Assembly (NCBI RefSeq): GCF_021917145.1
Contig: NC_061081.1
Coordinates: 4,236,966-4,300,965, forward strand
Length of the DNA stretch: 64,000 bases
Reading direction: 5' to 3'
Source: Hypomesus transpacificus
Taxonomy: Eukaryota; Chordata; Actinopteri; Osmeriformes; Osmeridae
Part shown: piece by piece, positions 13,310 through 32,020 of the stretch
Layout of the letters: each line of letters opens with the position of its first letter
Numbering within the stretch: the first letter of the stretch is position 1
The notes under the pieces: generated by a model
Told to the model about the DNA's origin: nothing
Seen by the model: the letters and a program-made list of their open reading frames with translations, nothing else
Database searches by the model: none
Position numbers and translations under genes: made by a program

Positions 13310-13746
13310 TTGGTCAGTAGGGATGTGCATCTCCATCCCTGAGGACGATGCGATACACATCTCGATGCACTACCAACGATCCGATACATTAAAGATACAT
13401 AAAAGCAACTACTAATGCGATACGATACGATTCACCCCTATTGCGATGCAGTGAGATTCGACACGATGCGATTCAACGAGATGCGATGCAAAATAATTCT
13501 ATGCAATTTAATATGGTATATAATGATTTATTTATTTGTCAGACAACAAATCATTAACAAAGTCTCTGACAAAAGATAACATGTATGTGTATAATGTGTG
13601 TGTAAGTGTTCTCTGAATTGAACATTTTTACACCTACACCTGGCAGTCACAACGTAGTTTGCTTCATCCTGAACATGTGGATCAACTGCCTCACACACAC
13701 AATTTTACTAATTTGTCCTATTTTAAGGTTTTTCTTTAGGAATATG

Positions 13747-15200
13747 CAACCCAATCTTATCCCAATCGTCAAATATTGACGCTTGGGCATAGCCCTTTGG
13801 CGTCACTATACCGACGCCGGGGGACGCCTTTTTCGTCGTTTTTTGACGCCTAGGGACGCCCATTGACTTCCACGTTAATATGTTCGGCTTTTCCCGTAGA
13901 AAATTGTGAACTATGGCGTCGTATTTTGACGCATTAGGTCTCCCATAGATTTTGATGAGCGGCTTTCGGATTTTTACGAAACGTCACCATAATAAGTCGG
14001 GTGATTTCGTAAAAATCCGGCCGATGTGCTTTCAACATGATTTTTTTTGTTATATCCAAGACATAAACGTTATAAATGACATAAACCTTATTTAAGGACA
14101 TAAAAGTTATTTATAAAATGGACTGATACCAAATAAACCGATCTAAAAAGGTAGGCCTATATGCATAAAAAAGAAAAGAAAAATAGAATCCATCGGGGGA
14201 GGAATATCATTTTATTTTAATCATAATTTTAAGCGCATGGAAGCAATCATGTCAAATGCACTGACAGCAAAACCTATAAATTATCCAACATTATTGTAAT
14301 TTTATTATTACACACAAGTCGCCTAAAAGTTTGACGCTCAATATCTGGCTGGAACTACTTCTTGTCACCCAAACCTCCGCTCTCTCGTACTGAAAAGGTA
14401 AGCTATTATCGATGAAGTAAACGTATATTTAAGATACTATCCTACTATACAGTTTTTTTAAATTGTTTTTAGGTTGGTTTAATGTTATTATGTTTGACGT
14501 ACATTGCCCGGTGCTTTGCATCACCAATAAAAATTAATTGACTTTGTAAACTGCAAAAATAGGCTAATACACTGTGCTAGCTAGTTAGCTAGTCTAACGT
14601 TATGTCATGCAAGGTCATGAACCGGTGCACTTTCATTGGACTCAGACCAATGTTTATCTTTGCTGGCGTGGTCCTTTTTACATCTCATAGCTTGCTAGGT
14701 ATGACATTTATTGTATTGTATTTTTTATCTTTTCTTACTTGCAGCTGAAGTCACGCATTTTCTGGAAACGATATCGATATCCTTATTACCTCACCATATT
14801 ATTACCTCACCATATCCTTGTCTTACTGCCTATTTTAATAATTTGTCAGGACGTACCTGTGTATACCTGTGTCCACCTACCTCTGTCTACCTGTGTTACG
14901 CCCTCCACAGGCTCTGCCTGTCTTTCTGTTTGTCTTTCTGTTTGTCTGTGTTTGTGTGAATCTCCAGGCTCCAGTGATCCAGTCCACCCTACCTGCACAA
15001 GATCCACACCTGCGGTCCAGTTTCCCAATAACTTGCGGTGACATACCCTGGTTTGCCCTCCACTCACCGCCAGATCGTTGTTTTTACAACCTGGTACCTA
15101 CGTTCCTGGCCTCCTTGTACTTCCGAGTCTATTATCTACTATTTGTATTCAAAGTGTTCTAATATTGCACTTTCTTGTGTCCCAAAGAAACATCCCACTC
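13747..15200 (+). repeat. left terminal inverted repeat with promoter-side exons
   Basis: It matches 28324-29779 in reverse complement to CATCCCACTC at 15191-15200, where the copies diverge. The outer 200 bp carry many GACGC/GCGTC motifs and a 15-bp perfect hairpin (13967-13981/14005-14019). A consensus donor CTGAAAAG|GTAAGC sits at 14397/14398 and a strong acceptor TTTTCTTACTTGCAG ends at 14744. These predict a noncoding exon, a 347-bp intron, and a second exon from 14745 that runs past the TIR into the transposase start. Small frames in the second exon (for example 14869-15162) are identical in both TIRs because the TIRs are; I take them as upstream frames, not proteins. Confidence 0.85.
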
Positions 15201-15237
15201 GCCATCTGCCCATTTGTCTGTCTACTCTTTCAACTCA

Positions 15238-18200
15238 ATGATGAGTGATTTGCAGTTGATGGAATTGGAGGATGAGCTCAAGAGTGTAGATACATTTCTT
15301 GAACATCTCAAGACAGAAGAGGTAAAGCAGCTTCTGTTTTGTCTATAGTTAACAGTATTCCTTCTTACCAGTTCATATAAGATACATGGAGGCGTATTTA
15401 AAAGACATGAATCAGAAGGGTTACACTACTTTAACTGCTTTTTCTGTCAGTAGTCCGAAGGCATTTCCCATATTGGTAAACCTTTCTTAAACCAAGTTGT
15501 AATTCTAGACAGAGAAGAACAGACAGAAAACTAAGACCACATCACCAAAGCCTGTTCATTGGAAGAAGAGGGACCACAATGGGGACATTGTTCACCAGCG
15601 CCCACGAGCCCTTAGAAAGCAGTCAACATCACAAAGACCAGACGAAGGAAGACATGTTTCTTCTTCACCGCCATTAGACCATGGCCAACACCTAGACCAT
15701 GGTGAATAATCTTTTGTTCCAAATGCTGTATTTCAACAGTGTGTTGTGGCGATGTTGGAGTTACAATATTATTATTTTTTCTCCTCCCTTTTGAAGATTT
15801 GAATATGCGGCAGCTTGAGGACCTTCTACAGGACTAAGAGAACATGGAATCGCAAGATTTTGTTCAGCAGCCACCATTGTCCAGTTGGAGTCAAAGGCAG
15901 AAAGAGGTCCAACAATGTTGGCAACAGGCGAGGCCACAGAACCTTGACAATTTACTTTCTGCTGGGAACATCGTACAGATGACATGCAATCACTGTCACG
16001 TGAAAGAAGCTGTCATCCGTTGTGGGGAATGTATGCCCTCAGAGTGGTTTTGTGCTGAGTGTGATGGCTCGGTACATAAACACCACACTCCACACAACAG
16101 GCAAACCATCATGGATGGATTTTTCAAATACATCCCACCAACAGAGGCTGTGACACTCTGTGACACTGGAAAATACAGCATTTGTGAACAAGTTTGGCAT
16201 TTCTTTTACAATTGATTGTCAATTTTCTTAACAGATCATTCTTATCTGAAATTGAAATGTGTTATTTAAGTCATTACTCACAACCCAAACATTATTAATT
16301 GTATACCTTATGGTTCTTTGCCTTGCAGATTGTTTTCTGCCAACAGCTCTACCTCAAAGGATATGCTCCTGTGACACCGCTGATGCAGCAGTCTCTGTTG
16401 GTAGATCCATCATACTGGTTTGCATAAATGGTAGGATCTTGTTAAACTGTTGAATTTTTTTATATTACTAACACGTCACTTTGGTTTCATGTTATTGATT
16501 TGCCTTTCATGTGCTTTCAGGCCGTTATGATCTTCACGTTCCGGTGCTAACATGCAAACATTGCAACCAGAAATGGGCTCCAGAAGTCAGTGACTTTGTA
16601 AAGAGTGGTTACTGGCCTGCTACCATGCAGGCACAGACACTGTTCCACCAAGATCTCTTCCATTCCTTTGAGGCTATGAAGACAGCAGCTCCAGGAATGT
16701 CCAGACAAGCCTTTACAGCAATGTTGGACCAGAGAACAAAGCAATATGGAAGCGTAAGTAAAAAGCAGTTCAAGGTCCACAAGTGGCTGTAGTAGGTAGT
16801 ACATATTTCAGATTATAGACTGAAGACCTTACCACACAAAATAGTCATTTGCATCCTTATGGATTTGAAAAGTTGCATACAAAACACAAAACATACAAAG
16901 GCAAAGATGTAGTTTATCGTTTTTGAAAGCTGTATTATATTATTTTCTTTAGACTTGCAAAGTGAATGCAGATGCATTTCAGAGAATTTTTCTGCAATTT
17001 GTGTACTGCAACTATGAAGAGAACCAACTTCTTGGAAAGGAGCCATTGGTCTGTCCAGCCTGTAGCCCTGAAATGGTGGCTGTTTCTGTGGATGGCAACA
17101 GAAAGTTGTACAGGTTCCAGAAAACAAACCAGTGAGTTCTGTGCACACATTATGAACAGCCAATGTAGTTAATATACAGTATGTCCAGCTGTTAATGACA
17201 CTGTTAATGTCAATGTTTTTTTGATAAGTGCTACATAAATAAAAGGTCCTATTACAAAGGTAGTCCATAATACATTGTCTTAAAGGAGTGAAGAGCCAGG
17301 GTTCTTCGATGGAGTGTTTTTAGCCCGAGACTCTGAGGTGTCCAGTTTTGTTGAGGAGGTCCGGGGAACTGTCAAGAGTGTACGTTTTACATTATTCTGA
17401 ACAACATTTATTGGGATTATTTTGTTCTAATTAAAGTTAAAGTAGAAAACACGATTGCCTTTGGAGAAGGGAGTCTATGATCAGGTGGGGATACAGCACT
17501 ATATTCTTATCCAGGGGGCACAGTACATTCATATTGCATATTGCTTTATCCTTCAAATGTAAGGTCAGGCAATGACAAAATCTTGACAGTTAAAGTTTGT
17601 GTGTTTGCGTGAACAGTCCTGCAATCTAGTGTACTTGAATTAACTATTGTCATGTTCAAATGATTTACTTTGGTAGACCGCAGGAAAAGCGATGTGTGGT
17701 GACACCCAATGGAATGCAGCAAGAGAGACTTCAAAGCGGGCCAACAAGTTGGATGAAGAAGGTGTGGAAATTGCTGTGTGTAGACATGGATTTCTTCTCA
17801 AAGGTTGGTATGGGTCTGATTAAGTAGTAGTAAAAAATGATCTAAAGCCTCTTTCATGTGCATTGTGCTTTTTTTAAAGGTCTGAATATGTATAGAGGAG
17901 AAATCTTTGCATATCCAATGTTTCTTCAAAAAGAGTTCCAGAGTGCTACATTTTTGGCCATGGATGTGACCTGCCGATATGTGCCATACTTGACAAAAGT
18001 GTCAGAGGCCCTGACGCATCTTCAACCCCTTCAGGAAATGAGGCATTGCTTGTCTGTGATGCATGCCAAAGCCCACAATACAAAATGCGAGGTGATGCTT
18101 TTAGCTACTTGACCATACATTTTAGAGTATGATGTGGCAAACTGAGTGTAAAATGCCATAATAAAAGACAATAGCCATACCACAGTGGTCTGGACTGACC

Positions 18201-20052
18201 CATACAACAACCTAGGAGTGTATTTAAAGTTTTTCTGTAGCCCCTAAGTACTGCCCTCTAAAGTTGGTAATCTCAGGATATGCTTCAATAACGTGTGTCC
18301 ACACCGCTTTACACATTATCTTCTTCCTGTAGATTCTGTGGACTGCAAGGAACCAGGAGGGCGCCGGCACCACTCTCGGTGAAGAAGTAGAGCAAGTGAA
18401 TAGTTTTCTCTCCAGATGTGCCCTTACCACCAAGTATATGGCCAAGTCAGGTTTGTAAGCTTATTTCCCCCTGCCAGCCTGCAAATGTACATGTTTTACA
18501 AAATTGTATTGTGATTTTGTTTTGTTCTTCACAGTAAGAACTGACATGCTGACTGTCCATGCTATGGGGTGGAATGAACAGAAAGAGAATGGCCTCCATA
18601 TAGCCTTGTCTTCTAGATTTAAGAAGGTATGTTCACATACTGAAGATGATTAACTTTTTAAAGCAGTTACATATAAACGTAACTTTTACTTATTATACCC
18701 AAAATGCATCAGGTTGTTATAGTACCCCCTAGTAGAAATTGTAGTGGTACAGGACCTCTGGTAGTTTAAAAGACCTTCTGTATTGTTGTTTTCAGACAGT
18801 AGAGAAGACTGTGGATGTAGCCGAGAGCCTGAAGACAATGCAGGAGCAGTTGCATTGCTGTGATGACATGCTGAAACAATGGGTTGTTGATGTCAAGCAG
18901 TGGGCCAGTAGCAGTAAGAAAAATACTTAATTCATAAACACTCTCAGTCACTTGGTTGTAATATCTGCATATCTGTAGCTTAAATGTTAAAAGTGTATTT
19001 ATTTTATCTTTAATCAAGGAAGCGCAGCACCTGGTCCTGTTGATGCTCAAAGTTTGCAGATCACAATCGAAGCACTCTTTGTGAGCATTTGTCAGAAAAA
19101 GCACTACCTTTACAGACAGAATGGTATGTATAGTGTAAACATAACTAATGCAGATAAATCTTAGGCTATACTGATATCTTCATTACCATGGCAGCTCTTT
19201 TTACGTACTATTGTTTTTACTGTATTTGCAGATCGCAACAAAAGGCGACAGAAAATAACTCAAAAGATAGCCCAGGAAAAGAAACGGTTTCTGGAAGACA
19301 TCCAGAGATACAACCAACAGCCTGATGGTGACCTTGTGGACACAGAGTTAGTTGTGCAGAAACTCTCTAACAAAGCTGCAGAGAGCATGATCTGGCCTTG
19401 GCAGGAACAGAACACAGGTGTTGCATCAAGATTTAACTTAAGTATGCATATAAAATGTCATCAAATTAGTTTATTAATGTCAAATGTTTTTATTCCTTGA
19501 CAGACGGTGTGGACATTCTCACAAAGAAGAAGCTCTTTGACCACGTAATGCTTGCCTCACGACTAAAAGAGGAAAAGCAGATCCTTGTGAAGGAGATGCT
19601 GCAGCACTGCCAGTACCTCAAGGACTCAGTGGCAAAGGTCCAGACACTGATGGGCACTGTTTTAGTGAGCACACAGACAGGAAGTAAGTGTAAATCAAAT
19701 GATCTGGCTACATGCACTTTCAAATTTATAGGTCAAACTATTTAAGTGGAAACCAATCCTGCTAGTATAGTCTTCGGTAAATAAATTTAAACATAAATTA
19801 ACAACATTTCCAGGCTTGCCAAATGGATTAACCGAGGAGGGGTCCAAGGGCCTCATCAGTGCACTAAAAAGAAGACTGCAACACCTGAGACTCCAACAGC
19901 AGACCATAGCAGGCACCTACAGATGCACTCTCAAACCAAGTAACAGGCTGGTGGAAGAGGAGGACAGGGAAATGGAAGAAGACATGGACTGGCAACGTGG
20001 CAACACCTCGGATGATGATGATAGTGATGAGGAGGAGGATGCAGAGAATTGA
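15238..20052 (+). CDS. KDZ-superfamily transposase, 16 coding exons, apparently intact
   Basis: Exons by splice consensus and phase: 15238-15321, 15509-15701, 15839-16183, 16329-16430, 16521-16753, 16953-17131, 17286-17379, 17677-17803, 17880-18091, 18333-18450, 18535-18626, 18796-18913, 19019-19123, 19232-19417, 19504-19683, 19814-20052. They join in one frame of 868 codons. Residues 142-175 form the N-terminal Cys cluster (CNHCHVKEAV ... CGEC ... FCAEC then HKHH) typical of KDZ proteins. Then come CPACSPEMVAVSVDGNRKL (Asp366), CGDTQWNAARE (417-427), ATFLAMDVTCRY (Asp481), MHAKAHNTKCE (513-523) and GAGTTLGEEVEQVN (533-545). Asp366, Asp481 and a Glu near 540 are candidate DDE catalytic residues. 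The C-terminus is coiled-coil-like and ends in a Glu/Asp-rich tail. The exon-3 start is a choice: an acceptor at 15796 would include a TAA (15835-15837), while one at 15838 avoids it in frame. The exon-3 donor (16184) is also uncertain. The nuclear protein would bind the TIRs and catalyse excision and insertion. Confidence 0.85.
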
Positions 20053-20259
20053 ATTCAAGTCACTTGGATCTGAATCACTCAGTCACAGCTGTAATCGCCT
20101 GAGACCTAACTTGATATACTGTAATGTATACTGTGTGTTCTCTCCCTTTGATCTCTACCTGTAATGGCCCAGGCGAGTCAATTGCAACAGAGGCTGCCTC
20201 CAGAGCATGACTGCAGCAGAGCACAGAGCATTATTTGTAAATGAGTGGTAGAACATAAC

Positions 20260-20484
20260 ACTTAACTTATAACATGGGTGAGTTAGTGACCAAGCTAACG
20301 TTTTCGGGTTTTTGTTTTAGATTCACTGTTAGGTAAGGGAGCGCGCTGGCTCCGCCTTCCCATTGCGGGGAGGGCCAGCGGCTCCCAGGTTTTGGTTTTA
20401 TTTTCACTAACTCAGTCTTGTTTTTCTGTTCAATAAACTTTCGTATTATTTTTTACATACATTGACTTGCGTGGTTGGACTCAA
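20260..20484 (+). terminator. 3' UTR / poly(A) module, left copy of inverted pair
   Basis: This is the downstream end of the transposase gene. AATAAA lies at 20432-20437 in CTGTTCAATAAACTTTCG. The whole ~225-bp block, including a GC-rich stem region (GAGCGCGCTGGCTCCGCC ... about 20340-20390), is repeated in reverse complement at 23236-23457, where it serves the convergent gene. Confidence 0.75.
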
Positions 20485-23235
20485 TTTATGTTGGCTGGCA
20501 GATTGGGCAATTGGGAAATGATGGGGATAAATTATTCATTTATTATTCATCATATATTTATTCATCATATATTTCAATTATCCAGATTGTTTTTGAAAAA
20601 TTCTGATTTAACTCTGTATAACTCGAGACAACTATCATCTCAATATTTAATATTGATTAGTGACCATTAGTGAAAATCTGAGTCTGGATGAGGTTGAAGT
20701 TCTGTGTGTAATATAAGGTGCGTTCGACTTCATGCAGCGCCGGCGTCGCCTGCAGCCCGGCTGACATGACGCAGCCAATGGTATTCTCAGATTCAAGGCA
20801 GCCGGCTGTCGACGCCGCCGGCGCTGCATGAAGTCGAACATACCTATAGACGCATTTTCTGTTGATAGAAATGAGTGGGAATATTTGGCGTATAAACCAC
20901 GCAAATAGGGATCCTCCCAACGGAACCCTGAGTTAGCTGAAAGCTACTGATAGCTAACTGTAGTTCTTTAAAACCAACGAGATTCCAAACAATCGTAAAA
21001 CGAAGTAATCGGATGGTTTCTAATTATGCGAAATTACACATGATGACAAACCAAAAAGGCTAAATATAGCTACCAACAAATCTTGCCATACACCATGATT
21101 TAAGTAGCCCTAGCCTACACAAAAGGTGTGTTCGACTTCATGCAGGGCCGGCGGCGCGGACCAGCCAATGGCATTCACTCCTTCAAGTCAGCGAGGCCGG
21201 CTGTCGGTGCTGCTGACGCTGCATGAATTCGAGTAGACCTAAAGTCAAGGCTAATCCCTCGATGCGTCATCTCATTTAAAATACTACTCCATTGCCAACT
21301 AGGGCATTTAATGCTAATATTGATTACCTCTTCAACACCTCCATTATATTATAATCTATTCATACATACTTTGTATGTGATATATCAATTGTTAAGATGT
21401 TTTCAAACCCTAAACATGTAAACTTTGAAACATGTAGGCCTAGTTGAACTACAAATATGGCGTCGTTCAACATCTCGATTCAGTGTTTAATGGAATACGT
21501 TTGTAGTTCTTTTAGTAATTTGTGTTTTACACCAATATCATCTCCAATTTTATATTAGATTGATCAGAAATGTAAAATGTACATGCATTATAGATCAATA
21601 CGCATTATATATAATCAGCACTACAAAAGTAAACTTTGGAATGTCTTTTTCTCATACTTTTTTTAAATATTAAATTCGAGTTTTGAATGTTTTTGTCACA
21701 CTGCATGGAATGTCTCAATGAAGCAACATGGAAATTTTCAGCCCGGTAGCAGCATACTTTGGAGTACAAGACACATTTTAGATTTTGAAAATGAACATTT
21801 CAAGGTGGCGCTGTTGAGCCTCTATCTGGCTTAGAGGTAAAGCCATGTGAAAAAAAGTATTTACTCGTCCAAAATATTCGACAGGGCAAGCCACGAACAT
21901 GTACCACCAAGGACATCAAACCCCTAACCCTAGCGCTGTCTGTTCAGACCATGTCTTATGCAGAGCAACTAATCATCTTTTAAGTTTGGGGATAAACAAA
22001 TGCACAAGTGGTTCTGTACCCTGGTTCTGTTTGTGCTAAACCAGGACTATGTGCCACCAAAACATAATTTGACTTTGACCACTGATGTTGTCTATTTAGA
22101 TTGTGAATGGTCTTGGAATCTATACTTGTAAAGATACCACACTGCAATGGCAGATTTGGATTTTAATAAGACTGTCGTACAACAACGTCAAACCCATTTT
22201 TGGAAAGGTCTTAGCTTGCGGGTTCATTTATGTAAATTTGACACATTCCTGTAAACCCTTATCTGATATATTGACCTTTGAACCCTTGCCAGGGGTCACC
22301 TTAAAGCCCTATATTTAGTAGTAGTATGGTAATTAGGGTTCCTTTCATGGCACATAGTCCTGGCTTGGTACAGTGAATGACTGGGGTTAGATAAACTGTG
22401 TCTTTTAGTTTCATAACCCTAGCCCCTACAGGGGATCAACAGCGCCACCTAGAAAAGGTAATTTTTCCTAAAATTCAATTCAATTTTCTTTCCTATCTGA
22501 AGCTAGGATCATCCTGGGATTTTGTATTTAGACCAATATTGACACTCTTCACATCATACTGGAACCATGTTCGAAGATTATGATGTCAAATAATGTTAAG
22601 TAAAGTTTACATATAAAGATATTTAAATGTTGACTTTTCGAGTACTGATACATTTTGTCTTTCATAAAAGACCAATGAATGTATATTTGTCATATTAAGT
22701 GATTTAAATGTAACTGAGGACAAAGATCTTCTAAAAAAATTAATTTTTAAATTGAAAGTAAAAAAGAACTACATTTCCCACAACCCCGCCAATATGTTTT
22801 AACGATAATATGCGCCATATTTGTAGTCCACGTAAGTTTGCTATGGTTATCATTTTAGTTAAGTGTAGCCCACATTATTTAATGACCTATTCAATTACTT
22901 TAAAAACTTGTATAAGTCTTACCACGTGTCAACATGGAAAAAAATAGAATATATAATGTATAATTCATATAGCCTATCTTCATGCCATCACCTTTATTAA
23001 GGCATGGATTATTCTGAATGTGACGTCATCGCGCCACACTCCCAGTACAGATTATTCATATTCAGCCAAAAGGAATCCATCATTTAACATTGTATGTAAT
23101 GTGGTGTTAATAAGATAACACATTTACATCTGCTTGTGATGGCCTAACTTTTAATCTAAGTTTTCTCTTCATAGGTAGTCTACTCTTACCTCCACCAAGC
23201 AAAGGATCAGACGGTTGCTTGTAGGCTAACATAAG
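20485..23235. repeat. central spacer of the 16-kb element, filled with MITEs
   Basis: No coding sequence was recognised. Two short palindromic MITEs of one family (TGCGTTCGACTTCATGCAG ends) lie at about 20718-20856 and 21126-21240. A 1.4-kb element with ends ACTACAAATATGGCG (about 21452) and CGCCATATTTGTAGT (about 22827) contains two copies of the GGTGGCGCTGTTGA-type block. These are secondary insertions between the two poly(A) modules. Confidence 0.6.
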
Positions 23236-23457
23236 TGAGTCCAACCATGCAAGTCAATGTTTATAAAAGTAATACCAAAGTTTATTGAACAGAAAAACAA
23301 GACTGAGTTAGTGAAAATAAACCAAAACCTGGGAGCCGCTGGCCCTCCCCGCAATGGGAAGGCGGAGCCAGCGCGCTCCCTTACCTAACAGTGAATCTAA
23401 AACAAAAACTCGAAAACGTTAGCTTGGTCACCAACTCACCTGTGTTATAAGTTAAGT
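23236..23457 (-). terminator. 3' UTR / poly(A) module, right copy of inverted pair
   Basis: This is the reverse complement of 20260-20484 with about 3-5% differences by eye. On the minus strand its AATAAA is the complement of TTTATT at 23281-23286. It would end transcripts of the accessory gene coming from the right TIR. Confidence 0.7.
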
Positions 23458-23640
23458 TTTATGGAGGCAACCATAAATCGATGCCTAGAACCCAGGAAGT
23501 GATTAAATGACTAAATGTAAATGTAAGTGGATAACAAACAAAACTTGAACTGAGAAAAAGATTGTGGCCGTAACAGTATCACAATAAGCTCATAACATGT
23601 TACAGTGTATATCAATAACAAATATAGAATTAGGAACTCT

Positions 23641-26600
23641 TTAAACAATAACCAGGCAGCTAGGCACAGAAATATTAACAGCAGACTTCCAGGTATCCTC
23701 CCATTCTTTTACACTGTGAAAAGAAATACACATCAGAATCAGAATATGGTTTATTCACTATGTATGTGAACAAACACAGAATTTATGGTGGCAGGGAGGG
23801 GCAAACAATAAACATACGGATCTTAAAGTAAGTAAAAGTACAAAAGTTTAACTATTTCTTAGAACTAAAATCTAAGAATAAAACAATTTAAATATAAAAT
23901 ATGTATAAAAATAAGAGTAAGACTAAGTAAGTACAATTTTGATAACATAGTGGTTACTTTATCAAAAGTTAGTGAAATACAGTGATCAATGTTATCTGTT
24001 TTTACAATTTCACCATGAGATTATGTGACTTAAGTTAAAGGTCCCCATGGCATGCTGTTTTTGGATGCTTTTATATAGGCCTTAGTGGTCCCCTAATACT
24101 GTATCTGAAGTCTCCTCCCGAAATTCAGCCTTCGTGCAGAATTACAGCCACTACGAGCAGTCCCACAATGAGCTTTCCTCAGGATGTGCCGTTCCTGTAT
24201 CTGTAGTTTTAAATGCTATGAGGAGGAGAGAGGCGGGGCTAACTGCCATGCTTCGGTCGTTTGTAAGCCATGATGTCTCTCGAGGAAAAAACAATATCCT
24301 GCTTGCACAGTCGTAGCTAATTTTATCATTGGCGGGCCATATTCTTTGGACGGGCAAAGCAGAGTAAGGGGAGGTAACCTTTCCACCTTATAACGCATAA
24401 GAGGAAAATTCCAGATGGGCCCATCTGAACTTTAATTTTCTCAAAGGCGGAGCAGGACATCCAGGGCTTGGTTTACACATATCGCAATTTCTAGCCACTG
24501 GGGGACCATAGGTAGGGGTTTGGAGAAGCACATTTTGTCGTATTGGCTTAAATACAATTCTAATCCTAATAGTAATCAAATCAAATGCTTGGACAGTAAT
24601 ATGAATCTGGTATCTGTGGCCGTTACAGGACTATAATTAACACAAAGAATAACGAATCCTTATTGGATACTGCAGTTCTTTAGTAGAGTAGAAGTTAATT
24701 TCTCTGATTCAAGTTGGTGATAGTTTCTCCACAGAGGCAATGTATGTTTAATGATAAATGTTCAACTTTTAACAACAGGAACTATAGGCTTTTCACAAGT
24801 TGCTTGTGATGAAAAATGCTGTTGGCTACATTTCAGATGGAGGAAAGAACTTGAGATATAGCCAAAAGATAAGAGTACAGTCTCTTAGAGTTCGATGGGC
24901 CTAAATGTTAACCTGACAAGTCAGATAGTTTGTTGCACAGAACCACCTGGGGAAGTCATCCTTGGAAACTGTTAGGAAAAGGGCAGGCGCTTTTACCCCT
25001 AAAATTGCAAGGGATTTTATCTGTCTATTAGGGCCGGGCGGTATGACGGTATATACCGTGCGACGGCAGAAACCGGGAGAGTTTTGGCTATACCGTTTCA
25101 ACCGCGGTATACTTTTTGACTACTTTTAAATGTTTTGGGTTGGGCAAAAAGGGCTTGCATCTAAAGTCTTTACAAATTTGTGATATTTTTGTATTTCACG
25201 TCAATTAAATGTCTGGTTGTTGTATTGTATATAAGCCATTGCATAAATCGTATTCCTTCAATATTTAGAATTGTAGTTTAACTTTTATTTGATTTGCTAT
25301 TTTCGTTTGACCTTGATGCAGATTTGCGTTGGTCTGACAGAATTTTTGATGTGGAGTACATTCATGCCGATGCTAATTAATTATATATTTGATGACCCAT
25401 TCTGCAGGTAACCAATTTGATTTGTTGCTCAAGTTGTATGTCTCATGCTGTAAAATTATTGTTGTAAAATTACACTGGTGGCGTTGCTAGTATTCTTGAT
25501 TTAGGATGACTAGTGAAGGCTAGCTACTGACTAATTGAGAGTGAGGACATGCCGGGAAATATCAAACTGAGGCTTTAACGTATCGACCGAGCTTTAACAA
25601 GGTTGATACGCCGACACCGAAGTTAGATATGGATAGTAAAACTCTGAGCTGTGAGTACGTCACCATGCGGATGGCATGACTGTGCATCCGCCAATCGGAA
25701 CGCTCGTACTGTCGTTGCCTTTAAATAATAGCCAGTAACGTCTTGTAGTACATGCAATACCGTTTTTTCCACCACACTAGTGGCACTGGTAAAATTTCTT
25801 AACTGACTTTACAGAACAATTACTATACCGTGATAAATACCGTAACCGTGATATAAAATTACTCATACCGTGATAGAAGATTTTGGCCATATGGCCCACC
25901 CCTATCTATCACTCTCTATCTAAGGCCTGTAGCTGCCAGGAGTTCCTCTGTAGGATGATAATTCGTTTGGCCACAAGTGCATTACTTCAGACGGCCTAAG
26001 GTCAGATGGCTGAGCGGTTAGGGAATCAGGCTATTAATCAGAAGGTTGCCGGTTTGACTTTTGGCTGTGCAAAATTATGTTGTGTCCTTGGGCAAGACAC
26101 CTCACCCTACTTGCCTCGGGGGGAATGTCCCTGTACTTGCTGTAAATTGCTCTGGATAAGAGTGTATGCTAAATGACTAAATGTAATGTAAATGTAACTT
26201 GAAGCCTGGCAAGATGGATTCATGGACAAGCTAACTCAAAAAAGCTTTAATAATAATTAAACCCCCACTAAAAATAATTTAAATGAAACACAATCGCATG
26301 CATCTGAGCTTACCTGCTTTAAACGTCCCACTTTTTAAACAGGAAATTGCAGCCTGAAAATATATGAACAGAGGAATAACAAATAAGTGCCTGATTTTTT
26401 TGGGGTCATTACAAGAAAAGATTATTCATAATGCATAAGCATATGACCCTTACATAAGACAACCTTTACCTTAAATTATTTTTCTTTTTCCCGGGGAATG
26501 ATTTTTGGGAAGACCTTGAGGAGAAGAGATGTGGGAAGAAGTAGAAAGTGGGTACCATAGAGAGAGGGTTGGTGAAGGAGGTAAAGAGAGCGAGGGACTG

Positions 26601-28093
26601 GGGAAAGGAGGTGCGGAGAAAGAATGGGAGGGAAGAGCAGGAGAACAGAAAGAGTGGGAGGGAAGAGGAGGGGAAGAGAGAGAGGGAGTCATAGGATGTG
26701 AAGAGAGAGAGGGAGTAGGAAGAGTAGATGAAGAGAGAGAGGGAGTAGGAAGAGTAGATGAAGAGAGAGAGGGAGTAGGAAGAGTAGATGAAGATAGAGA
26801 GGGAGTAGGAAGAGTATATGAAGAGAGAGAGGGAGTAGGAAGAGTAGATGAAGAGAGAGAGGGAGTAGGAAGAGTAGATGAAGAGAGAGAGGGAGTAGGA
26901 AGAGTAGATGAAGAGAGAGAGGGAGTAGGAAGAGTAGATGAAGAGAGAGAGGGAGTAGGAAGAGTAGATGAAGAGAGAGAGGGAGTAGGAAGAGTAGATG
27001 TAGAGAGAGAGGGAGTAGGAAGAGTAGATAAAGAGAGAGAGGAAGTCATAGGAGGTGGGTGGGGGACCGGGACAAGGTTAAGGGTGAAGGTTTGATCCTG
27101 AGTGGAGGCAGGGGATGTTGCTTCTGGTGTTTCTTCTCTTGTTTCCTCACCAGCTGTGGCAACGAGGCTATTGTGGTCTGAGAGATAAAGACAAATAAGT
27201 AAATGTAGAGGGAAGCAATATGTTCTCTGCTCCCAGCTTGAATCTAACTATAACAGCCGCACAAATGAGGTTAATTAAACAGAAACAGGGTCTAATCTGG
27301 GAATATTTACTCATCAACAATATTCTATTAGTATATTTTATGTTACATAACGTGTTTAGAAACTAAATGTAAATGCAAAGTTATAAAAAAGCATGTCCCA
27401 ATGCAAAATATGTGTTCTTACATTTCAGATAGTATTCATAAAGGGTTGTCATTTTTTTAATGATCTCCCTCACAGGCCCCTCTGGTATGAAGCCTATGCC
27501 TGCAATGACCTTTGCTGTAAACCCCCCCCCCTCTCTTCTCTTTCCCCATGAAGAGCAGGGGCTTTAAGTCCAGTTCATGCAGCTTATTGACCTAAAAAAC
27601 AGACATTAACAAGTTATCAGGCTTTGTCCTCTGTATCAGCTCTCTTGCCATCTGATCAACTACTTTTGAAATGGTATCATACTTCTTCCTACTTTTCAAA
27701 GTATCTACTATACTTCTTTTCAAATTGACAAAGCTAGGGGTCCTTACAGGAAGACTATAAGATGTGATGCTGCTATTGATTAAATGATATGGCCTGATAC
27801 CAATGAAACTGGCATTGATATCAAGTTCCGACCATTATAGTATGGATCTGAATGGAACCGTAACCTAAGACCTCCACATTCTCACTCACAGATATGCGGG
27901 CTGAATCTATCACTCTGCCTGCGTTGCGGTGCTTCTTCACATTCTCCCCCCAGTCACCAACATGCCAACTCTCCTCCTTGGACTTAATCCTCTTTTTTTG
28001 TGAGAGGCTTGCAAAAAATGAAAGGCATGTTTTGCGGTTGGCAGTATTCATGACCTGGCAGTGAGGGCAAGGCCTGCTTTTGGGTTTGGTCAT
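23641..28093 (-). CDS. accessory gene of the KDZ element: zinc-ribbon/Ser-Pro-rich protein, multi-exon
   Basis: I do not recognise a named family. The noncoding exons are in the right TIR. The first coding exon (acceptor ending at 28097, ATG at 28093) gives MTKPKSRPCPHCQ then NRKTCLSFFASLS, a CxxC...C zinc-ribbon-like start, then AGRVIDSARIS before a GTGAGT donor at 27889; read-through would add VSENVEVLGYGSIQ. Further coding blocks are about 27834-27664 (FVNLKRSIVDTLKSRKKYD), 27591-27422 (VNKLHELDLKPLLF then GFTAKVIAGIGFIPEGPV), and 27177 to about 26473, which joins in phase and encodes HNSLVATAGEETRE followed by about a dozen LPTPSLSSST repeats. A possible last exon starts at 23713 (VKEWEDTWKSAVNISV, stop at 23641). 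A frame change near 27840 and a 10-G run at 27522-27531 break the simple frame, so this copy may be damaged or the exon calls incomplete. Its role is unknown; its place inside the TIRs suggests a transposition helper or cargo. Confidence 0.55.
24035..24640. repeat. dispersed repeat, GGTCCCCATGGCATGCTG start
   Basis: AAGGTCCCCATGGCATGC, followed by GTGGTCCCCTAATACTGTAT and later TCTAGCCACTGGGGGACCAT (about 24492), is a phrase order familiar from many fish genomes. The ends are approximate. The overlapping small frames are not genes. 23718-24034 and 24641-25028 hold nothing recognisable. Confidence 0.5.
25029..25904. mobile_element. hAT-like MITE (TAGGGCCGGGCGGTAT ends)
   Basis: The ends TAGGGCCGGGCGGTATGAC and, inverted, TAGGGGTGGGCCATATGG are TIR-like and resemble those of the element at 53522-54425. 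Internal ATACCGTG/CACGGTAT motifs cluster near both ends. No exact target duplication was found. No transposase frame is seen in its 876 bp. Confidence 0.65.
26001..26196 (+). mobile_element. tRNA-derived SINE
   Basis: The head reads like a tRNA-Leu-type gene: GATGGCTGAGCGGTTAGGG (A box) then GGTTGCCGGTTTGACT (B box, one change from consensus). The body contains TCCTTGGGCAAGACACCTCA, and the tail has CTCTGGATAAGAGTGTATGC followed by AAATGACTAAATGTAATGT repeats. This layout is standard for teleost tRNA SINEs. It sits in an intron of the accessory gene. Confidence 0.85.
26700..27045 (-). repeat. 30-bp minisatellite coding for LPTPSLSSST repeats
   Basis: About twelve tandem 30-bp units (GAGGGAGTAGGAAGAGTAGA plus ATGAAGAGAGA on the plus strand) are nearly identical, with single-base variants in a few units. 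The unit is a multiple of three, so every unit reads as the same ten residues in the minus-strand exon. Both strands are open by chance; the minus strand is preferred because the exon begins at a good acceptor (27179-27178) in matching phase. Confidence 0.85.
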
Positions 28094-28323
28094 TTTCTGC
28101 AAACATAAACACATTGACATGTTATAAGCATTACAAGTAGGAATATGAGTAACACACATTAGATAATAATTATTCTTACATTTCATTCCTATGGCTTATG
28201 GGTATTGTAGTAAAGCATGAACTTCGGCATGAACATGGAAAGAAGTAATGTATATATTTGTCTCACAAACACCGAGGCAGGTAGCAAGCAGAGCGCGTAG
28301 GCAGGCAGATGGAGAGTTGGGGT

Positions 28324-29779
28324 GAGTGGGATGTTTCTTTGGGACACAAGAAAGTGCAATATTAGAACACTTTGAATACAAATAGTAGATAATAGACTCG
28401 GAAGTACAAGGAGGCCAGGAACGTAGGTACCAGGTTGTAAAAACAACGATCTGGCGGTGAGTGGAGGGCAAACCAGGGTATGTCACCGCAAGTTATTGGG
28501 AAACTGGACCGCAGGTGTGGATCTTGTGCAGGTAGGGTGGACTGGATCACTGGAGCCTGGAGATTCACACAAACACAGACAAACAGAAAGACAAACAGAA
28601 AGACAGGCAGAGCCTGTGGAGGGCGTAACACAGGTAGACAGAGGTAGGTGGACACAGGTATACACAGGTACGTCCTGACAAATTATTAAAATAGGCAGTA
28701 AGACAAGGATATGGTGAGGTAATAATATGGTGAGGTAATAAGGATATCGATATCGTTTCCAGAAAATGCGTGACTTCAGCTGCAAGTAAGAAAAGATAAA
28801 AAATACAATACAATAAATGTCATACCTAGCAAGCTATGAGATGTAAAAAGGACCACGCCAGCAAAGATAAACATTGGTCTGAGTCCAATGAAAGTGCACC
28901 GGTTCATGACCTTGCATGACATAACGTTAGACTAGCTAACTAGCTAGCACAGTGTATTAGCCTATTTTTGCAGTTTACAAAGTCAATTAATTTTTATTGG
29001 TGATGCAAAGCACCGGGCAATGTACGTCAAACATAATAACATTAAACCAACCTAAAAACAATTAAAAAAAAACTGTATAGTAGGATAGTATCTTAAATAT
29101 ACGTTTACTTCATCGATAATAGCTTACCTTTTCAGTACGAGAGAGCGGAGGTTTGGGTGACAAGAAGTAGTTCCAGCCAGATATTGAGCGTCAAACTTTT
29201 AGGCGACTTGTGTGTAATAATAAAATTACAATAATGTTGGATAATTTATAGGTTTTGCTGTCAGTGCATTTGACATGATTGCTTCCATGCGCTTAAAATT
29301 ATGATTAAAATAAAATGATATTCCTCCCCCGATGGATTCTATTTTTCTTTTCTTTTTTATGCATATAGGCCTACCTTTTTAGATCGGTTTATTTGGTATC
29401 AGTCCATTTTATAAATAACTTTTATGTCCTTAAATAAGGTTTATGTCATTTATAACGTTTATGTCTTGGATATAACAAAAAAAATCATGTTGAAAGCACA
29501 TCGGCCGGATTTTTACGAAATCACCCGACTTATTATGGTGACGTTTCGTAAAAATCCGAAAGCCGCTCATCAAAATCTATGGGAGACCTAATGCGTCAAA
29601 ATACGACGCCATAGTTCACAATTTTCTACGGGAAAAGCCGAACATATTAACGTGGAAGTCAATGGGCGTCCCTAGGCGTCAAAAAACGACGAAAAAGGCG
29701 TCCCCCGGCGTCGGTATAGTGACGCCAAAGGGCTCTGCCCAAGCGTCAATATTTGACGAGTTGGGATGAGACTGGGTTG
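28324..29779 (-). repeat. right terminal inverted repeat with promoter-side exons
   Basis: This is the mirror of 13747-15200. On the minus strand the same donor occurs at 29128/29127 (AAAAG|GTAAGC) and the same acceptor at 28781-28780 (TTGCAG). The accessory gene should therefore use the same promoter and first exons as the transposase, but oriented inward from the right end. The hairpin arms are at 29506-29520 and 29544-29558. Confidence 0.85.
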
Positions 29780-29786
29780 GAATATG

Positions 29787-32020
29787 AGTTGATCCACATG
29801 ATCAGGGTGAAGCAAACTGCGCTGTGCTGTAACTATGTCACCAGCTGTGCCGAACATTCTTTCAGAGGATACACTTGTTGCTGGGATGGACAGGTAGCTC
29901 TTTGCCAAGGCTGAAAGTAGTGGAAGATCCACTTGTTTTTTCCACCACTGCAACATATCACCACTCAGAGCTAAAGAAACCCTCTCTCTGTACTGATTTC
30001 TGCCCTAGCTCTCTCCCTTGTGGTCTTCATTGGTGCTCTTGCAGTGAGGAAATCCCCAAACATCTGGTCCAAGGCTGTCTTCTTGGGGGGGACATCTTCT
30101 GGAATGGAACAGAAGAGCAGAGTGGATTATCAGTTGTGTTAAAAAATATGATGTCCAAATTATGATTTACAATCTATCTACTTATCTTACTATGTATGAC
30201 TCTTACTATATATGTATTTAAATGATACTATACAACTATATATAATACATGCATCTTTAAACAAACATTGTTTTAAAACTTTTGGCACAGTTCCTATCAG
30301 AACAAACCTCTCTCTTCCTCTATGTGGGGGTTCCTGTCAACTTCTGTTTCATCTGCCTGGCCCTCATTCAGTGTGCCACTGTCACTTGCTTGGCCCTCAT
30401 TCAGTGTGCCACTGTCACCTGCTTGGCCCTCATTCAGCGTGCCACTGTCACTTGCCTGACAAAAATCTGTATAATGGAGACTAGCTGCTAGATTTCCTTT
30501 TCCAACTTAAGCAAGGCACAAGTAAATTAACAAATAGAGAGTTTAGCTACGGTATGGAGTGTATTCTTACCTCTCCATCCATCATCACCACCTCTGCTGT
30601 TATCTTCATGAATATCATGTCCTTGGTGCTGTGGTTTTCCAAGAAAGCCAGGTCTTTGAAACTTGGATCAAGTGCTGTGGCATTGTAGAGGAGGTCTTGG
30701 AGATATGTGTAGCGACCATTAAAGTCCTGTCTGAACTGCTCCTTCATCAGAGAAATTATCAGTTGATGGTTCTCATCTGGCTGGAAATGCTTCTGCAGTT
30801 TGGCCTGGATTGGGGAGATCTTGAGATGGTGGGGTTTTTTTCCTCACTGAGGAGTGTGGTTGCCACTTTTGGAGGGGACATCAATTTGATGACCTCTGGG
30901 ATCAGTGTCATGTCTTCCTCTGTCAGGCTGGCTAATCCTTCTCCCCTCTTTATCTTCCTTGACAGCAGGGAGTTCAACACAGCAGGCTGCTGCTCCCAAA
31001 AACGCTCCAACATGTCAAGGGAACTGTTCCATCTTGTGGGAACATCGTGGACGAGCTTGTGATTTGGCATGTGTAACTGGGCCTGCATTTCACGTAGAAC
31101 CTCAGTTGCTTGTGGGCTTCTGTGAAAAAAAGTTGTCATCTTCCTCACTTTCACCAGAAGCTCTGACATCCTATCCACCTTCAGGGATTTTTGCGTGGCC
31201 AGATTGAGTGTGTGCGCGATGCATCGCACATGGGGGTTAATCCCTGCATGAACTCCAGCCAGTATCATGTTTTTTTGCGTTGTCCGTGACCAACACTGGG
31301 TTCTTGTCTTTGATCTTCCACTCGCAACAAATGTCCTTCAGTAAAACTGCTAGATTAATCCCTGTGTGAGCCTCGTTGAACACTTTGGTTTGTAGAACGT
31401 GGTTTTGCAAAACCCACTCGTCATCAATGTAGTGTGCCGTGACTGTGACATACGAGTCAGTGGCGCAAGACGTCCAACCATCAACTGTTAATGCAACTCT
31501 TTGAGCATTGCTCAATGACTCAGCTGATTCTTGTTTTACTTTCTCGTACAGAAGAGGGATTTGTTTCTCTGTGAATAGTTTTCTATTTGGAATGTGGATC
31601 CTCGGCTCCAGTATGTTGAGGAGGTATTGGAAGCCCTCGTTTTCTACAACACTGTAAGGCTGGATATCTTTACAAATAAAGAAAGCAATGGCTTCGGTTA
31701 TTGCCTAAGAACGAGCTGAGTTAGTAGCCATCGGGGCATGAAAAAATACTGGCAATACTTTGCTCAGTCTGCTTGCTAGGTCTACCGGTGGAGCTAGCCA
31801 CTGTAGCCATAACTGAATCCGAGGCAGACGTATCACCATGTCGCCTCTTCAGGTGAGTAGCTAAATTAGTCGTGCTGCCGGTGTATTTTATGGCAGCACA
31901 ACATATTTTGCAGATTGCATTGGTCTTATCGAATTTACCATCTTTCTTCGGAAATCCAAAATGCTGCCAAACCTGGGATTTATTACAAGTTGTAGGGATG
32001 TGTAACTCTTCATCCGCCAT
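29787..32020 (-). pseudogene. hAT transposase pseudogene (BED finger to dimerisation domain)
   Basis: The likely start is the ATG at 32020 (MADEELHIP), although a frame is open from 32089. In order I see: a BED zinc finger with ICKICCAA and THLKRRHGD (about 31930-31840); a transposase core with VALTVDGWTS (about 31490); the RCIAHTLNLA block (about 31220); VPTRWNSSLDMLERF (about 31030); and the C-terminal hAT dimerisation block with SIPATSVSSERMFGTAGD (about 29890-29840). Frames change near 31730, 31265 and 30810, and a TAG stop lies at about 31707, so this copy is dead. The last codons (IFLKKNLK, about 13739-13640) are stranded on the far side of the nested element. hAT transposases cut and paste with 8-bp duplications and an RNase H-like DDE core. 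Confidence 0.85.

Follow-up and report, generated by a model that had tools for sequence, protein, structure and literature searches.

Two convergent genes in a DNA transposon, both transcribed from promoters within its terminal inverted repeats (TIRs), are known from MuDR, a Mutator element of maize (PMC3440606 and PMC3310237, in their available portions). Elements of the KDZ superfamily (Kyakuja, Dileera and Zisupton) have been described from fungi, where the transposase is accompanied by accessory TET/JBP passenger genes; according to the available portion of PMC12730594, Kyakuja has CA..TG ends and 7-bp target duplications, and Zisupton and Dileera have 8-bp duplications. KDZ1-3 of Cryptococcus, which carry the Cys cluster CxC1, are about 9-11 kb long with 8-bp or 4-8-bp duplications (PMC12810828, available portion). 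Zisupton, a multi-exon KDZ element, was first described in fishes (Bohne et al. 2012, as cited in the available part of PMC9297572).

Positions 13747-29779 of the window, that is, of the whole 64,000-nucleotide stretch of Hypomesus transpacificus DNA analysed, are occupied by a 16,033-bp KDZ transposon that extends the plan best known from the maize transposon to a KDZ lineage. Like MuDR, it pairs a transposase gene with a convergent second gene, here termed gene B, and MuDR's second protein is likewise of unknown function (PMC3440606 and PMC3310237, in part). Unlike MuDR, it has a transposase of another family, TIRs of ~1.46 kb rather than about 215 bp, the donor and acceptor of a leader intron inside the TIR, and a second gene without a known domain. 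The combination of a KDZ transposase and an accessory gene is common to the fungal elements (PMC12730594, in part), although the accessory gene here is zinc-ribbon-like and not TET/JBP, and the very long TIRs differ from Kyakuja, two families of which are described without TIRs in that portion of the source. A KDZ transposase with a Cys cluster is likewise found in Cryptococcus KDZ1-3, whose TIRs are 139-241 bp and for which the available portion of PMC12810828 mentions no second gene. Since two convergent TIR-driven genes are already present in MuDR, the logic of the arrangement is known, and the suggestion in the preliminary description that the design was undescribed has to be narrowed. What stands as new, as far as the search extended, is the occurrence in a KDZ element, the location of a spliced leader within the TIR, and the partner gene; the literature searched described neither a KDZ element whose TIRs bear a promoter or exons nor such a partner gene, a result that falls short of establishing absence from print.

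The element has the ends CAACCC..GGGTTG and, as previously reported, is flanked by a 7-bp target duplication, GAATATG, read at both ends (13740-13746 and 29780-29786). The left TIR (13747-15203, plus strand) comprises the transposon end, a putative promoter, leader exon 1, intron 1 and the start of exon 2, and the right TIR (28321-29779, minus strand) has equivalent content for the minus-strand gene. The near-identical repeats, estimated earlier at ~1.45 kb, measured ~1,457 bp each, with inverted arms matching at 99% (13761-14470 with 29055-29764) and 100% (14453-15203 with 28321-29071). Such near-identity of two arms would also result from an error of assembly or from one local inverted duplication. 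With a TIR probe, at least 44 matches were obtained from this genome, 40 of 76 candidates having been scored, and two inverted TIRs were paired at 14 places with spans of about 15.8-20.1 kb. Eleven full copies were read, including that of the window, with identities of 97.9-100%; the C1 and C134 copies have identical flanks and represent one insertion on two contigs. Among 12 distinct loci read at both ends, nine had a 7-bp target duplication, two (C2 and C15) an 8-bp one and one (C158:0.54 Mb) none, the duplications of C21 and C15 being scored by eye. CA..TG termini were present in all eleven copies read. The expectation that other copies would share the ends and the gene pair and be flanked by 7-8-bp duplications was thus borne out, with duplications at 11 of the 12 loci, and the element is mobile DNA. 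These loci, together with inverted ends in three other families (below), rule out an assembly artefact, and an origin of the TIR pair by artefact or local duplication is given almost no credence.

The copy in the window is dead: both genes are damaged and neither protein could be produced intact. It lacks, at 24508-24515, ~645 bp that are present in the ten other copies. Five of the eleven copies (C17a, C2, C17b, C158 and C26; loci L011-L016, L019-L020 and L023-L024) form a deletion subfamily, 99.7-99.9% identical, with two shared deletions, one of which takes the first part of a transposase exon while the other lies in the right TIR. The common deletions at such high identity suggest that this subfamily was perhaps amplified in trans.

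The plus-strand KDZ transposase gene named in the preliminary description was recovered with 16 coding exons across 15238-20052. Its exon 2 (14745-15321) spans the inner TIR edge and contains the start codon at 15238; the coding exons are 15238-15321, 15515-15701, 15797-16183, 16329-16430, 16521-16753, 16953-17131, 17286-17379, 17677-17803, 17880-18091, 18333-18450, 18535-18626, 18796-18913, 19019-19123, 19232-19417, 19504-19683 and 19814-20052. Codon 104 is an in-frame stop in the window, while C1 and its duplicate C134 retain an uninterrupted frame of 880 aa. The window, C1, C134 and C7 have GT/AG at every splice site; the C91 frame is open with one donor lost. The spliced C1 product matched the Pfam families KDZ (PF18758, E=2e-31, profile positions 5-217 of 217) and CxC3 (PF18804, E=8e-16), and exon-level matches in the window were 4e-14 for CxC3 and 5e-6 for KDZ, in support of the proposed KDZ identity. 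At E values up to 1, the C1 transposase yielded KDZ, CxC3, a weak CxC2 and two chance matches, and no Mutator domain.

The PF18758 domain, the CxC cluster (CxC3) and the 7-8-bp duplications at 11 of 12 loci place the element in the KDZ superfamily. Relative to the published descriptions of Kyakuja, Dileera and Zisupton, the 7-bp duplications at nine of 12 loci and the CA..TG ends are Kyakuja-like, yet the long TIRs do not fit the fungal description of that group, and duplications that are mostly 7 and sometimes 8 bp agree only in part with the 8 bp of Zisupton and Dileera. The element is accordingly filed as KDZ with no subgroup given. The layout of two convergent genes is of MuDR type, and the transposase is not of Mutator type.

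Gene B, the spliced gene reported on the minus strand, has three coding exons with consistent phases 0 and 1 and is unrelated to the transposase. Exon 3 (27890-28093) carries the start codon and a zinc-ribbon-like CxxC...CxxC motif, one Cys of which is replaced in the window; exon 4 (27422-27591) contains a G homopolymer of variable length; and exon 5 (26471-27177) encodes an FTLxLVPV motif, a Ser/Thr/Pro tandem repeat and a basic end. The repeat consists of 13.5 units of 30 bp (26647-27046), and the number of units varies between copies. As assembled, none of the 11 copies is in frame through all three exons to the basic tail. The exon-4 homopolymer puts gene B out of frame in eight copies, and in the remaining three (C6, C7 and C158) the frame shifts elsewhere; part of this loss may be homopolymer error in the assembly. 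A Pfam search with gene B gave nothing above the cut-off, the best match being DZR in the exon-3 part (E=0.005, 17.4 bits against a cut-off of 27.3), and in PDB no relative was found (best E 0.46), a profile search up to E 1 being empty.

The same plan, with long TIRs and with the transposase and gene B running inward from opposite sides, was found in three further, diverged KDZ families. In the C20 family (copies C20 and C13), whose transposase is 26-64% identical by segment, the TIRs are 1,557 bp with two mismatches between left and right, the ends are CAACCC and the duplication is 7 bp. The transposase start codon is 20 bp in from the edge of one TIR, gene B lies closely inward of the other, the intron phases agree by eye with those seen in the window family, and a different Ser/Thr/Pro repeat stands at the equivalent position of gene B. 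The C2:5.30-Mb family has an 18.5-kb element with an 8-bp duplication, the same plan and a stop in gene B exon 3. The C158:1.58-Mb family, of which the two outer parts were examined, has TIRs of ~0.9 kb at 85% and, by eye, a 7-bp duplication. C51, considered as a separate family, proved to be a damaged copy of this last one.

Genome searches yielded 33 matches for CxC3, 17 for KDZ, 87 for window-type gene B and 36 for C20-type gene B, which were merged by hand into 36 places for the transposase and 40 for gene B; six of the gene-B places are weak (E 0.004 to 0.99). Gene B lay within 25 kb of 21 of the 36 CxC3/KDZ places, and all 21 pairs were convergent. At the other 15, which include C39 with gene B 37 kb away, it was undetected within that distance, suggesting that gene B may there be dispensable, lost or too diverged. 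Conversely, a transposase place was found within 25 kb of 21 of the 40 gene-B places and was missing at 19, five of which belong to the deletion subfamily and lack the probed exon. Gene-B exon-3-like frames were also seen at five places with no CxC3/KDZ match within 25 kb (C33:105397, C11:1205851, C4:2630964, C23:13610312 and C17:11643743; identity 34-39%, E 0.004-0.035); these are possibly further families, orphaned gene B or chance.

Constraint on gene B was evident between families. Identity between the window and C20 types of gene B is 23%, and four cysteines are invariant across the four aligned rows. For exon 3, comparison of C1 with the C2 family and C367 gave pN of 0.40-0.41 and pS of 0.88-0.89, values that point to saturated silent change under protein constraint. 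Three comparisons among C367, C8 and the C2 copy gave exon 3 dN/dS of 0.47-0.85, over codons free of stops. Within the window family, with one copy taken per lineage, mean pairwise divergence was 0.98% in gene B exons 3-4 versus 1.09% in its introns, so near to equality that the close copies alone do not demonstrate constraint on gene B; the corresponding values were 1.19% for transposase exons versus 2.39% for introns, and 1.21% for the left TIR.

Gene B might on these grounds be a host-captured passenger that hitch-hikes without a role in transposition, as would agree with its non-detection at 15 CxC3/KDZ places, the lack of an intact gene B among the 11 copies and the weak constraint among close copies. 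A mere passenger would hardly be expected to be found at one position and on one strand across four diverged families, its exon phases agreeing by eye, to be constrained between those families, or to be convergent with the transposase in every detected pair, and we regard this origin as unlikely. The occurrence of homologues convergent to the transposase in four KDZ families instead indicates that gene B is a long-standing partner of the KDZ transposase, and a partner gene conserved to this extent has a role that can be tested.

The TIRs overlap the 5' part of both genes. Within each are the splice sites that define exon 1, an intron and the beginning of exon 2: exon 1 ends at 14397 in the left TIR and 29128 in the right, and exon 2 begins at 14745 on the plus strand and 28779 on the minus strand. 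The preliminary description had placed one donor/acceptor pair inside each TIR, and the donor GTAAGC and acceptor GCAG|CT were indeed the same in every one of the 22 TIRs read, from 11 copies that include one insertion present twice, although at 1-2% divergence such invariance is by itself weak support. Comparison between families was more informative for the C20 and C2 TIRs, whose top match in an unguided local alignment was exon 1 with its donor (score 42, reached by none of 200 shuffles, maximum 33); the next three blocks, among them those of the acceptor and exon 2, were collinear and none was significant singly. The window-family TIR gave no convincing match to other TIRs outside the termini (scores of 35, reached by two of 200 shuffles, and 33, by one of 200), and its splice sites did not align to those of the other families. 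In the left TIR of the C2-family copy the donor is changed, and in the C158:1.58-Mb family a candidate donor was seen by eye in both TIRs with the left acceptor candidate changed.

At either end of the element the inner TIR edge is followed shortly by the start codon, and the coding sequence starts inward of that edge. This position argues against a model in which the long TIRs serve transposase binding or fold-back growth, with splice sites for the transposase gene only and gene B transcribed from an internal promoter, as does exon 2 of the C20 family, which can run from the TIR acceptor directly to the gene B start codon. In favor of an internal promoter, the splice of the window leader into gene B exon 3 depends on an inferred exon-2 donor that is weak by eye; taken together, we consider that model very unlikely. 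The earlier proposal that the TIR is at once mobility end and promoter cassette is upheld for the first part by copies with the same ends and target duplications, and the promoter is retained as putative.

The two TIRs of an element also appear to be homogenised. Counted over ungapped columns, 19 private variants occurred in the left and the right TIR of a single lineage, the deletion subfamily contributing none, and 31 were confined to one side. Left and right differ within an element at 0-18 of 1,410-1,454 compared bases, and in a TIR tree the left and right repeats of the same element clustered together in five of six lineages (C6, C7, C91, C1/C134 and the window); those of the deletion subfamily do not pair. 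Gene conversion or renewal at transposition fits as a cause, and assembly polishing is possible as a partial one.

A second inverted pair of 233 bp, absent from the preliminary description, lies near the middle of the element. One arm (20254-20486, plus strand) follows the transposase stop with AATAAA at 20432, and the other (23233-23463, minus strand; 94% identical) has a minus-strand AATAAA at 23286, making them putative 3' end modules of the transposase gene and gene B. With AATAAA in sense orientation for each gene, the pair suggests that the two genes of the window family have 3' as well as 5' modules in common. A comparison of the left arm with its counterparts in the ten other copies gave 97.0-99.1%, versus 94% between arms within the window element, and homogenisation thus seems specific to the TIRs. 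In C7 and C158 the right arm is interrupted or partial. Self-comparison of the C20 and C2 elements revealed no inner pair, and among the loci examined this repeat was found only in window-family copies.

The reading we favor, and hold to be probable, is a two-gene KDZ transposon whose homogenised TIRs are both mobile ends and promoters and whose gene B is a long-standing helper. The ~1.5-kb TIRs, as mobile ends overlapping the 5' part of two inward-facing genes, would each supply a promoter and so place both genes under one expression programme, which homogenisation would keep matched; TIRs that carry both leaders would be a simple way to hold two genes under the same control. With its zinc-ribbon-like N-terminus, Ser/Thr/Pro-rich repeat and basic tail, gene B may bind DNA or chromatin at the ends or counter silencing, a role comparable to that of the second proteins of other two-gene transposons. 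Both transcription from the TIRs and the function of gene B are inferred here from genomic sequence.

The leader of three families (C20, C2 and C158:1.58-Mb) contains a histone-like stem-loop, GGCTCTTTTAAGAGCC or a close variant, within the TIR or at its edge. A search of eight loci with the Rfam histone stem-loop model (RF00032, Histone3) gave six gene-sense matches (L040 3485-3531; L041 3664-3709 and 3779-3825; L043 1534-1579; L051 841-887; L052 1315-1359) with 17.9-32.3 bits and E values of 1.8e-5 to 4.2, all below the gathering score of 34; in the window element Rfam did not find the stem-loop. The 16-mer of the stem-loop occurs 153 times in the genome and its reversed control not at all. 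Of the 100 listed occurrences, the majority fall in dense clusters resembling histone arrays, and three lie within KDZ or gene-B genes or upstream of them, in the sense orientation (C2:5305038, C6:385938 and C8:13370913). No purine-rich element was evident by eye downstream of the stem-loop, and histone-type cleavage is therefore not predicted; the literature, as far as searched, yielded no mention of a histone stem-loop in this connection. A broader and rather doubtful extension of the two-gene reading would be an old KDZ lineage of obligate two-gene transposons, whose homogenised TIR would provide the entire 5' module, with promoter, spliced leader and, for three of the four families, the stem-loop; both proteins would then be made jointly, perhaps with a link to S phase by way of the machinery that acts on histone stem-loops. 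If functional, the leader stem-loop would link transposition to the cell cycle.

The Rfam search of the window element, at E values up to 5, gave nothing beyond a UnaL2 LINE 3' element inside the transposon (26129-26182, 44.7 bits, below the gathering score). The insertion also adjoins hAT-like sequence at 13640-13746 and 29787-31337, with a hAT dimerisation domain in a minus-strand frame at 29672-30004 and, by eye, a short similar stretch to the left of the element.
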